Positions 8,842-37,620 of a stretch of 64,000 bases of DNA are shown here, in pieces. The stretch covers positions 62,001-126,000 of the forward strand of contig JAJYHX010000003.1 in the NCBI GenBank assembly GCA_021784575.1, given 5' to 3'. Origin of the DNA: Nitrospirota bacterium. GTDB lineage: Bacteria; Nitrospirota; JACRHJ01. How positions within the stretch are numbered: position 1 is the stretch's first letter; each line of letters opens with the position of its first letter. The position numbers and the translations under genes were made by a program. The notes beneath the pieces were generated by a model that saw only the letters and a program-made list of their open reading frames with translations, had not been told where the DNA came from and did no database searches.

Positions 8842-10041
<1,200 letters not shown>

Positions 10042-25656: not shown

Positions 25657-26856
<1,200 letters not shown>

Positions 26857-26955
26857 TTGTTCCCCCCTAAATGGAAATACACGAGGGCGCAAACCCCTCC
26901 CAGCGTCCGGTTCAATACCGTTTCGCCGGAAGACTTTCCCTCGCCTCAATCTTCC

Positions 26956-27031
<76 letters not shown>

Positions 27032-34255: not shown

Positions 34256-34285
34256 ATTTTAACCTTCCCGCCGGCAATTTGTCAA
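34256..34285 (-). promoter_or_regulatory. Probable sigma-70 promoter for mtnA-mcp-mltA
   Basis: Minus-strand TTGACA (34280-34285) and TAAAAT (34256-34261) with an 18-bp spacer, about 40 bp upstream of mtnA. It is divergent from the metal-operon promoter at 34303-34331; the -35 boxes are less than 20 bp apart. Confidence 0.65.
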
Positions 34286-34302
34286 TAGAACAACATAAAC
34301 CG

Positions 34303-34331
34303 TTGCGTTTGTGTTTTTTCGCTGATATACT
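34303..34331 (+). promoter_or_regulatory. Candidate promoter for the Met-rich/YHS/Trx/CcdA/HMA operon
   Basis: TTGCGT (34303-34308) and TATACT (34326-34331) are separated by 17 bp; the -35 box is weak, as expected for an activated promoter. The start would be near 34338, about 58 bp before the first gene. No clear CueR/MerR-type 19-bp spacer or Fur box was seen. Confidence 0.5.
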
Positions 34332-34395
34332 TGTCGGAGCGAATCAGGTAATTCCCAATCACGTCATCAGGACGAATAAAGACAAGGAGGCTCGA

Positions 34396-35172
34396 ATGAA
34401 AGTATTCGCACTGCAACTTTTATGCGTAATGTCTCTTATTTTTACAGCCTTCCCTGCGGCGGCAGAAGGTATGCCCGCCCGGAATGGCGCAATGCCTGCG
34501 GCCTGCAATATGAATTCACAGACCTGCAGTTGCGGCGATAAATGCGCATGCGGAAACTGCCGCAAGGCCGGCCCGATGATGGGCATGATGGGCGGCGGTA
34601 TGCGCGGGCGGATGGGAAGGGACGGCATGGGGATGATGAAGTGCCGGATGTGCCATATGCGGGAGGGCTCTTACGGTATGGGCGGCATGATGGGCCGGCG
34701 CATGGGCATGATGAAAATGATGGGCATGGGGCCTATGGGCATGGCGGGCTCCCCCATGATGATGTCCCTGAAGCTCCCGGATTATTATCTCGACTGCCGG
34801 GACGCGCTGAACCTCACGGACGGCCAGGTGGAGAAACTGGCAAGGCTTAAGGAAAATCTCCGGGAAGAGACCATTATGAAAGGCGCAACCGTAATGGTGC
34901 TTGAGCTTCAGCTCTCAGATATAGTGTCCAATACCGGTTTCAAGCTCTCCGATGCGGATGCGAAGCTTAAACAGATAGAGGCCGCGCGGCTGAAGCTTCG
35001 CATGTCGGTTATCAAGGCCGCGGCGGAGGCGCGAAACACGCTGACCAAAGACCAGCTTGAAAAACTGAAGAAGATTTCGTCATCCGGCGGGAAGCGCTGC
35101 GCGTCGTGCGGCGGCATGAAAAAAGACATGATGGAGAAGATGATGAAGGAAAAAATGGAGAAGATGAAATAG
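34396..35172 (+). CDS. Secreted Met/Cys-rich metal-binding protein with a Spy/CpxP-like domain
   Basis: A 258-residue protein, start ATG at 34396 with AAGGAGG upstream. A signal peptide (residues 1-23) precedes a cysteine cluster (C37, C44, C46, C50, C52, C55), then a Met/Gly-rich stretch (about 60-125, with more than twenty Met plus C83/C86). A helical part (128-228) has two LTxxQ-type motifs (LTDGQ at 140-144, LTKDQ at 216-220), the signature of CpxP/Spy/ZraP-type periplasmic proteins. The C-terminus adds CASC (C235/C238) and a Met/Lys-rich tail. Met and Cys clusters of this kind bind Cu(I). Function is inferred: periplasmic metal sequestration, most likely copper. Confidence 0.8.
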   Translation: MKVFALQLLCVMSLIFTAFPAAAEGMPARNGAMPAACNMNSQTCSCGDKCACGNCRKAGPMMGMMGGGMRGRMGRDGMGMMKCRMCHMREGSYGMGGMMGRRMGMMKMMGMGPMGMAGSPMMMSLKLPDYYLDCRDALNLTDGQVEKLARLKENLREETIMKGATVMVLELQLSDIVSNTGFKLSDADAKLKQIEAARLKLRMSVIKAAAEARNTLTKDQLEKLKKISSSGGKRCASCGGMKKDMMEKMMKEKMEKMK

Positions 35173-35207
35173 CAGGCGTCCCGGCTTAAGTAAGGGAGGA
35201 GAGTCTT

Positions 35208-35504
35208 ATGAAAAAGTTTTTTATTGTCATAGCCATAGCGTTCCTTGCCGCGGCTTTTTCGCCTGCATGGGCCGATTCGCCGAAGCAATGCACAAAAAAA
35301 GGCGAATGCGGCATCAGATCCAAAGACCCTACCAAGCAGGATATTGTGATAGACCCGGTATGCGGCATGGACGTAGTCGCCAAGAAATCAAAATACAGCA
35401 GCGCTTACAAGGGGAAAACCTATCACTTCTGCAGCTTGAAGTGCAAAAGGGAGTTCGACAAAAATCCTTCAAGGTTCATTGGCAAAGAACACAAGAAAAA
35501 ATAA
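35208..35504 (+). CDS. Secreted YHS-domain protein
   Basis: A 98-residue protein with a signal peptide (1-22), an extra Cys pair (C28, C34) and a YHS domain: DPVCGM (49-54) and YHFCSLKCKREF (72-83). YHS domains bind soft metals through the cysteines and are often attached to copper ATPases or found in mercury loci. Here it stands alone in the periplasm. It follows the Met-rich gene by 35 bp and has a GGGAGGAG ribosome-binding site. Confidence 0.85.
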   Translation: MKKFFIVIAIAFLAAAFSPAWADSPKQCTKKGECGIRSKDPTKQDIVIDPVCGMDVVAKKSKYSSAYKGKTYHFCSLKCKREFDKNPSRFIGKEHKKK

Positions 35505-35517
35505 CGGGAGAAATTAA

Positions 35518-36078
35518 ATGAAATATCTGAAAACTGCGGCGCTTTTGCTGATGGCGGTATTTTTGTTCTTACAGTTCGGATGCGAGAAAAGTGGAGCGCA
35601 GAGCGGCGCCGCAAGCGGGAATACGCAGGCCGCAATGCCTTCACCCGGGAACGGCATACACTGGATGAACTACACCGACGGCATGGCGCAGTCCGCTAAG
35701 ACCGGAAAGCCGGTCATGATAGACTTTTACACCACCTGGTGCAAATACTGCAAACTGCTCGAATCCACTACTTACCAGGACCCGCAGGTAATCAAGACCT
35801 TAAACGGCAGCTTCATCGCAATCAAGGTAAACGCCGAGGGCGACGACAAGGTAATGGACAACGGGAAATCCGTTTCGGAGAAGGACCTTGCCGGGGAATA
35901 CGAGGTGACCGGATTTCCGACAATCTGGTTCCTCGACGCCAAACAGCAGAAGATAGGCAACGTCCCCGGCTATGAACCGGCTTCGGACTTTGAACCGAAA
36001 CTCACTTATATCTCGAGCGGCGCCTATGCCAATGGGATAAAGTTCGACGATTACCTGAAATCTCTCGGGGGAAAATAA
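35518..36078 (+). CDS. Thioredoxin-fold lipoprotein 1 (CKYC active site)
   Basis: A 186-residue lipoprotein with lipobox LQFGC (C22). The residue after the Cys is Glu, not Asp, so outer-membrane sorting is likely. The thioredoxin domain has the active site TWCKYC (C75, C78) and the cis-Pro region TGFPTIWFLD. It resembles the thioredoxin_7/DsbD-gamma group. It is clearly paralogous to the next gene, sharing the spacing of IxW-x2-Y-x-D, the CxxC site, TTYxDPxV and the C-terminal YI-SG segment. Stop and next start share a base (TAATG). Predicted role: periplasmic thiol reduction fed by CcdA. Confidence 0.85.
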   Translation: MKYLKTAALLLMAVFLFLQFGCEKSGAQSGAASGNTQAAMPSPGNGIHWMNYTDGMAQSAKTGKPVMIDFYTTWCKYCKLLESTTYQDPQVIKTLNGSFIAIKVNAEGDDKVMDNGKSVSEKDLAGEYEVTGFPTIWFLDAKQQKIGNVPGYEPASDFEPKLTYISSGAYANGIKFDDYLKSLGGK

Positions 36079-36668
36079 TGAGGTATTACTCAGTGCTGAA
36101 GACGGTATCGATGTCTTTTCTGCTGGCGGCGGCGCTTCTCCTGCCCGCATGTGCGAGCGCTGTGGACAAAAACGAGGTGGAACAGAAGGACAACCCCGTG
36201 AAAGAGCTTCATCAGCAGGCTCTGAAAAAAGTGCAGGCGGAAAATAACAAGATCAGATGGGTTTCCTATGGCGACGCCGTCGTCAGGGCGAGAGAAGAAG
36301 GTAAATATGTGATGGTCGATTTCTTTGCCACGTGGTGCAAATGGTGCAAAAAACTCTACAAAACCACTTACGCCGACCCCAAGGTCGCCCAGGCAATAAA
36401 TGCGGATTTCGTGCCGGTCAAGATAGACTCGGAATCTCAGGATAAAGTGACATACGCGATGCGGAGGATCACGAAGGCCCAGCTCGCCGACAAATACAAG
36501 GTTTCGAGCTACCCGACGATTTATTTCCTGGACAAAGACGGCAAGAAGGCAGATGTTTTGAACGGCTATCTCCCGCCTGATTCGTTTCTCGTGTATCTTC
36601 AATACATAAAAAGCGGCAAGTATAAAAAAATGTCATGGGATCAATACGTCTCAAAAGAGGCTAAGTAA
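36078..36668 (+). CDS. Thioredoxin-fold lipoprotein 2 (CKWC active site)
   Basis: A 196-residue lipoprotein with lipobox LLPAC (C25) and an active site ATWCKWC (C87, C90); the cis-Pro region is SSYPTIYFLD. A charged linker of about 35 residues separates the lipid anchor from the domain. It is a tandem paralogue of the preceding gene. Having two different CxxC dipeptides (KY and KW) may give different redox potentials, allowing a relay. Translation is coupled to the upstream gene through a TAATG overlap, and ccdA starts five bases later. Confidence 0.85.
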   Translation: MRYYSVLKTVSMSFLLAAALLLPACASAVDKNEVEQKDNPVKELHQQALKKVQAENNKIRWVSYGDAVVRAREEGKYVMVDFFATWCKWCKKLYKTTYADPKVAQAINADFVPVKIDSESQDKVTYAMRRITKAQLADKYKVSSYPTIYFLDKDGKKADVLNGYLPPDSFLVYLQYIKSGKYKKMSWDQYVSKEAK

Positions 36669-36673
36669 GAAAG

Positions 36674-37405
36674 ATGTTTCAGCAAGGGGTCACTTACCTT
36701 ATGGCCTTCACCGCGGGTCTTCTGTCTTTTTTCAGCCCCTGCGTTCTGCCGCTTATCCCCGCTTATCTCTCCTACGTCACTGGCATGTCCATAGAAGAGT
36801 ACCAGAGCAACCTTGAGAAGGCCGCACGGCGAAGAGTTGTCTTAAAAACCCTCTCTTTCATCGCCGGGTTCGCCTTTATTTTTATAGTAGTGTTCGGGGC
36901 CGGGACAACGCTTCTTTCCGCCGCGCTCCGGGAACACAAGGAACTCATCGGCAAGATGGGCGGGATACTCATCATCCTCTTCGGACTGCATTTCCTGGGA
37001 GTGTTCAAATTCAAATGGCTCTACAAGGAAAAACGCGCCCACTTCCGCAAGATTCCCTCGGGCTACGCAGGCTCGTTTATCATAGGCATTGCGTTCTCGG
37101 CGGGGTGGTCCCCATGCATCGGGCCGATTCTCGCCTCCATCGTCGGGATGGGATTGTCTTCCAGAAACCAATGGGAAGCCGTTCGCCTTCTCTCAATTTA
37201 CACTACAGGCCTGGCGCTGCCGTTCTTCCTGACATCTCTGGCGATAAACTTCTTCATGCCGCTATTCAACAGGGTAAAGCATCACTTCAGGTTCGTCGAA
37301 ATCGTAACCGCGCTTCTTCTTATCTCTGTCGGCGCGCTGATGTTCTTCGGTAGATTCGAGTCGTTTTCCGGCAGCATGATGCATTATCTTAATATCGGAG
37401 TCTGA
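36674..37405 (+). CDS. ccdA: CcdA-family thiol-disulfide electron transporter
   Basis: A 243-residue six-helix membrane protein of the CcdA/DsbD-beta family, which passes electrons from cytoplasmic thioredoxin to periplasmic thiols. The two redox cysteines are in conserved contexts: FFSPCVLPLIPAYLSYV (C23) and GWSPCIGP (C148). The cytoplasmic loop is short and basic. CcdA homologues serve cytochrome c maturation, but here no cytochrome c genes are near; the two thioredoxin lipoproteins directly upstream are the evident partners. Confidence 0.92.
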   Translation: MFQQGVTYLMAFTAGLLSFFSPCVLPLIPAYLSYVTGMSIEEYQSNLEKAARRRVVLKTLSFIAGFAFIFIVVFGAGTTLLSAALREHKELIGKMGGILIILFGLHFLGVFKFKWLYKEKRAHFRKIPSGYAGSFIIGIAFSAGWSPCIGPILASIVGMGLSSRNQWEAVRLLSIYTTGLALPFFLTSLAINFFMPLFNRVKHHFRFVEIVTALLLISVGALMFFGRFESFSGSMMHYLNIGV

Positions 37406-37410
37406 AAAAT

Positions 37411-37620
37411 ATGAAGACTGTCAAGCTTAAGGTCGCCGGCATGACATGCAATCACTGCGTCATGCATGTCGAGAACGCGCTGAAAGAGCTCTCGGGGGTG
37501 AAAACCGCGAAGGTTGACTTAAAGGACAAATCCGCCGAAGTAACATATGACGAGAGCGCGGTAGATACAAAGGAACTGGCGCAGGCCGTGGCCGAGGCGG
37601 GATATAGGGTCGAGGGCTGA
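37411..37620 (+). CDS. CopZ-like heavy-metal-associated (HMA) protein
   Basis: A 69-residue single HMA (ferredoxin-like) domain with the metal site GMTCNHC (C13, C16), no signal peptide, hence cytoplasmic. Such proteins carry Cu(I) or, less often, Hg(II) or Zn(II) to P-type ATPases. No ATPase gene is in the window. It ends the metal/thiol operon, three bases before the stop of the convergent gene at 37624. Confidence 0.9.
   Translation: MKTVKLKVAGMTCNHCVMHVENALKELSGVKTAKVDLKDKSAEVTYDESAVDTKELAQAVAEAGYRVEG

Follow-up and report, generated by a model that had tools for sequence, protein, structure and literature searches.

Closest described systems

The Scs system (ScsABCD, suppressor of copper sensitivity) joins a membrane thiol-electron transporter and periplasmic thioredoxin-fold proteins in one copper-tied locus. 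ScsB is a three-domain (alpha-beta-gamma) DsbD-like protein, and ScsC binds Cu(I) when reduced and depends on ScsB (PMC8900818). System II of cytochrome c maturation (CcsA-CcsB-CcsX-CcdA) is described as requiring DsbD or CcdA plus the CcsX thioredoxin (PMC4222556), and a ccsB-ccsA-ccsX-tfp7-ccdA cluster has been published for Leptospirillum (PMC7084401). The FetMP-FetABCDEF cluster of Campylobacter serves iron uptake and combines an ABC transporter, FetM, FetP and a membrane YHS/DUF2318 protein with twin periplasmic thioredoxins (PMC10783030). Copper toxicity is described as striking cytochrome c assembly as well as periplasmic thiols (PMC7558416).

The six-gene cassette of an uncultured Nitrospirota bacterium analysed here resembles Scs in encoding a membrane thiol-electron transporter together with periplasmic thioredoxin-fold proteins, and among known systems its proposed mode of action is closest to that of Scs. 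In contrast to ScsB, the cassette CcdA comprises the transmembrane part only, and since a three-domain ScsB is lacking, the cassette is not classed as an Scs system. Its thioredoxins are DsbD-gamma-like, and genes for Spy-like, YHS and HMA proteins are added. As in the DsbD and CcdA-thioredoxin pathways, CcdA and the two thioredoxins match, respectively, the transmembrane and the C-terminal domain of DsbD, but here these parts are split into separate genes that are embedded among metal-binding proteins. The CcdA family is shared with System II, and the cassette gene is the sole CcdA-type gene found in a genome with this system. However, ccsA and ccsB are absent beside the cassette ccdA, so that the cassette is not a System II maturation locus; the thioredoxins are not of the ResA/CcsX type by model score, and CcdA falls outside the Nitrospirota clade. 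A YHS domain and paired periplasmic thioredoxins in a metal locus recall the Fet cluster, from which the cassette is separated by the absence of FetM, FetP, FetA and an ABC transporter among its six products. No paper joining CcdA, a YHS domain and a thioredoxin was found in a literature search.

Organization of the locus

The window, i.e. the whole stretch of DNA that was analysed, comprises 64,000 nucleotides. An open reading frame check places six adjacent genes at 34396-37620, all on the plus strand and flanked on either side by minus-strand neighbours. The intergenic gaps are 35, 13, -1, 5 and 5 bp, and the six genes are presumably co-transcribed. The sequence-only reading had described this tightly packed plus-strand set, and all six reading frames are found where it placed them.

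34275..34345, plus strand: upstream block, candidate promoter/operator, with high conservation in three congeners
34396..35172, plus strand: secreted protein of 258 aa, rich in Met and Cys; N-terminus signal-like, followed by a disordered Met/Cys-rich region, a helical domain of Spy/CnrX type at about 124-230 and a C-terminal helix rich in Met and Lys
35208..35504, plus strand: secreted YHS-domain protein, 98 aa (Pfam YHS)
35518..36078, plus strand: exported thioredoxin (WCKYC), DsbD-gamma-like, probable lipoprotein (Pfam/NCBIfam, motif)
36078..36668, plus strand: exported thioredoxin (WCKWC), DsbD-gamma/DsbH-like, probable lipoprotein (Pfam/NCBIfam, motif)
36674..37405, plus strand: CcdA with six hydrophobic segments, C23 and C148 (DsbD_TM, profile match, orthologue alignment)
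37411..37620, plus strand: CopZ-like cytoplasmic HMA protein, 69 aa, GMTCNHC (HMA, TIGR00003)

The upstream block holds an extended -10-like motif, TGATATACT, and a conserved dyad, AACATAAAC-N6-GTTTGTGTT. The dyad alone is not significant: equally good palindromes occur in 125 of 1000 shuffles, and it was dropped as an operator. A promoter scan gave no plus-strand promoter above threshold and no excess over shuffles. The GC and AT skews reverse sign locally across 34-36 kb of the window.

Conservation of the gene order

The six-gene order is intact in two congener loci (L006 and L007). In a third congener (L008) it is kept up to the contig end, which falls inside the first gene, and in the sister genus (L009) it is kept with a third thioredoxin and one extra gene, between different flanks. 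The order is thus not unique to one contig, whereas uniqueness to this contig is what the earlier reading had named as speaking against it. The ratio dN/dS is 0.05-0.17 for each of the six cassette genes, which indicates purifying selection; together with the synteny, this rules out a chance neighbourhood. Beyond these congeners and the sister genus, the cassette was not detected in the sampled phylum among the matches listed, and it may occur elsewhere. The absence of CcdA from one genome (G004) was considered as a sign of an accessory cassette and dropped, being uninformative because MtnA is missing there as well. In the sister genus, a secreted protein of 306 aa is encoded between CcdA and HMA (L009, 5662-6582).

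Predicted metal-binding proteins

The first protein contains 16.2% Met and 4.7% Cys beyond residue 23, and the Met plus Cys content of its reading frame is 18.2% vs a median of 4.1% for the reading frames of the window. In the AlphaFold model, residues 1-123 are of low confidence and residues ~124-230 form a confident helical part. The best Foldseek matches of this helical part are CnrX, Spy, ZraP and CpxP, all with weak E-values (CnrX on top with probability 0.99 and E 0.23, the others at 0.23 or worse). The protein differs from these helical periplasmic proteins in its long disordered Met/Cys-rich region, and its Pfam LTXXQ score of 21.2 bits is below the gathering threshold of 24.3. The orthologue of the sister genus has 41% identity and carries 20 Cys and 31 Met beyond residue 23. 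The Met/Cys richness is therefore retained despite sequence drift, and the sister-genus form is richer still in Cys.

The second protein scores 64.2 bits with Pfam YHS, above the gathering threshold of 30.3. A search for this YHS protein found its close relatives in this class alone; secreted forms with weaker matches come from a further family (f37). Among 395 genomes sampled around G396, the YHS profile had no match at 1e-16, which is weak evidence as the search had no positive control. The sixth protein reaches 70.8 bits with Pfam HMA and passes the NCBIfam model TIGR00003 'copper ion binding' (75.2 vs a cut-off of 62). Its best-scoring NCBIfam models are those of CopZ, although it stays just under the CopZ-specific cut-offs (85.7 vs 95, 82.4 vs 91 and 80.7 vs 85); MerP models also score.

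Secreted YHS genes of family f37 adjoin a CPC ATPase that itself bears YHS domains (L149, 5884-9074; L148, 74-2932). In G239, a secreted protein with 26% Met is encoded just before such a gene, and in G001 another secreted YHS gene adjoins CusC/CusB-like genes, named by eye from translations. The ATPase assignment near the f37 genes is based on CPC motifs; the names of other neighbours, including those in G239, are partly by-eye readings.

CcdA and the exported thioredoxins

The cassette CcdA (243 aa) scores 49.5 bits with Pfam DsbD_TM, has no other domain above gathering and maps to the membrane part of DsbD in NCBIfam. Its sequence shows six hydrophobic segments; C23 and C148 are its only cysteines and do not vary across 5 orthologues. 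The profile of the protein matches the solved CcdA 5vkv (3.6e-29). Six transmembrane segments, two conserved cysteines and homology to a solved structure identify it as a CcdA. The two thioredoxins (P0003 and P0004) belong to the Thioredoxin_2/7 families, with Thioredoxin_2 Pfam scores of 72.4 and 66.4 bits, and both match the C-terminal part of DsbD models in NCBIfam. With the ResA model NF002854 they reach 18.8 (P0003) and 38.4 bits (P0004) vs a cut-off of 170 and are thus not of the ResA/CcsX type. Both are exported and probably lipid-anchored. The earlier designation as two thioredoxin lipoproteins holds for the export and the CxxC motifs; the lipid anchor is only probable, as the lipoboxes (FGC, PAC) are non-canonical. 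A comparison of P0003 with plasmids returned 29 records, all below 60% identity and none spanning 80% of the query.

CcdA matches are present in 371 of 396 phylum genomes. Among 85 CcdAs placed in a tree, the cassette form makes up a separate branch (100/100) outside the Nitrospirota clade (96/91). Of 25 ordinary CcdA loci, most of the eight viewed in full have a ResA/TlpA-type thioredoxin as neighbour, and CcsA lies within 1.5 kb of CcdA at 6 of the 25. In Desulfobacterales (L041, L047, L064, L066, L072), CcdA is followed by one DsbD-gamma-like thioredoxin, without metal genes; several of these loci adjoin a pyrroline-5-carboxylate-reductase-like or NUDIX-like gene. An arsenic operon of the sister genome G001 (L185, 6621-10851, contig C50) encodes ArsR, Acr3, a thiol protein, an exported thioredoxin whose tail is rich in Cys (CTTGKTCTTGKTCSPGSKC), a second CcdA and an ArsM-like methyltransferase.

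Cytochrome c synthesis and copper ATPase in the source genome

The only DsbD_TM match in the source genome (G000), and hence the only DsbD/CcdA-type homologue found, is the cassette CcdA; as this draft has a completeness of 96.7%, a further copy may have escaped detection. System II cytochrome c synthases are present, with CcsA homologues at three sites (including contigs C2 and C6) and a probable ResB alongside at two of them. No CcdA is encoded at these sites within the fetched 13-14 kb. A separate TlpA/ResA-like lipoprotein is encoded on contig C14. The earlier statement that neither a metal ATPase nor a cytochrome c gene is present is correct for the cassette, but a CPC-type copper ATPase and cytochrome c synthases are encoded elsewhere in the genome. 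On contig C2 (L184, 3686-8374), the ATPase lies next to CcsA and a probable ResB, which brings genes for copper transport and for cytochrome c synthesis together. Because no other CcdA-type gene was found in this System II genome, the cassette CcdA probably also serves cytochrome c; it is the best candidate electron source for cytochrome c maturation as well.

Proposed function and alternative explanations

At a probability of roughly 0.55, we favor a periplasmic operon for soft-metal handling, most likely of Cu(I), and thiol repair. The joining of soft-metal-binding parts to a complete CcdA-thioredoxin electron route, proposed before, is supported by the protein families and the conserved order. 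The cassette is probably a disassembled DsbD, with CcdA as the beta part and the two thioredoxins as gamma parts, judged by their model matches. Electrons would pass from cytoplasmic thioredoxin to CcdA and on to the two membrane-tethered thioredoxins, which would maintain the Met/Cys-rich Spy-like protein and the YHS protein with reduced cysteines able to hold Cu(I), and would undo wrong disulfides induced by the metal. The HMA protein may buffer or pass on cytosolic Cu(I), and CcdA would probably also feed reductant to apocytochrome c. The direction of electron flow, the substrates and the metal are inferred; copper is indicated, by association, by the similarity to CopZ and by secreted-YHS genes near CPC-type ATPases elsewhere in the phylum. 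Speaking against this reading are the absence of a metal transporter, a metal regulator and a cuproenzyme from the operon, the weak Foldseek E-values, the LTXXQ score below gathering, the CcdA-thioredoxin pair in the arsenic operon of the sister genome, the conserved dyad that is not significant alone, and the draft state of the genome. The sequence-only picture was largely right but incomplete, as it missed that this is the sole detected CcdA of the genome. More tentatively, a copper-defence operon may have taken over the cell's sole CcdA route, coupling metal tolerance to cytochrome c maturation, with the Met/Cys-rich Spy-like protein storing Cu(I) under redox control.

That CcdA and the thioredoxins mainly serve general or cytochrome c thiol reduction, with the metal proteins as neighbours in a separate role, appears rather doubtful. 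In its favor, the genome has CcsA, probable ResB and a single detected CcdA-type gene, and the separate TlpA/ResA-like lipoprotein would need a CcdA. Elsewhere in the phylum, CcdA adjoins ResA/TlpA-type thioredoxins and sometimes CcsA, so a cytochrome c association, which had been put forward as grounds for giving up the metal reading, does occur, though not at this locus. Against such a separate role, the six-gene order outlasts a changed genomic location in the sister genus, the thioredoxins match DsbD-gamma/DsbH rather than ResA models, and the cassette CcdA branches apart from the Nitrospirota clade.

A role with other soft metals or metalloids (Ag, Hg, As/Sb), singly or together, in place of copper is unlikely: the HMA protein has its highest scores with CopZ models and exceeds the copper-binding cut-off, secreted YHS relatives are found near CPC-type ATPase and Cus-like genes, and no ars or mer gene is present in the cassette. 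However, the HMA protein scores against MerP models too, and the ArsR-Acr3-thioredoxin-CcdA-ArsM arrangement of G001 (named by eye) indicates that modules of CcdA and thioredoxin also become part of metalloid operons here; this second pair makes soft elements besides copper possible. Delivery of metal to an envelope metalloenzyme instead of detoxification, as with Sco/TlpA or the Campylobacter iron cluster, is improbable. The Fet precedent, where two redundant thioredoxins accompany a YHS/DUF2318 membrane protein in metal acquisition (PMC10783030), favors it, but the six products include no transporter, FetM, FetP, FetA or cuproenzyme.

If the soft-metal and thiol-repair operon joins copper-type binding proteins to the sole detected thiol-electron transporter, the link between copper toxicity and cytochrome c and periplasmic thiols would become directly testable. 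A single electron supply may serve both the defence against copper and the building of cytochromes, and the cassette would show DsbD function rebuilt from separate parts within a metal cassette. Apart from the cassette, the window contains two EF-Tu-like reading frames (8842-10041 and 25657-27000) with a common 12-residue stretch.
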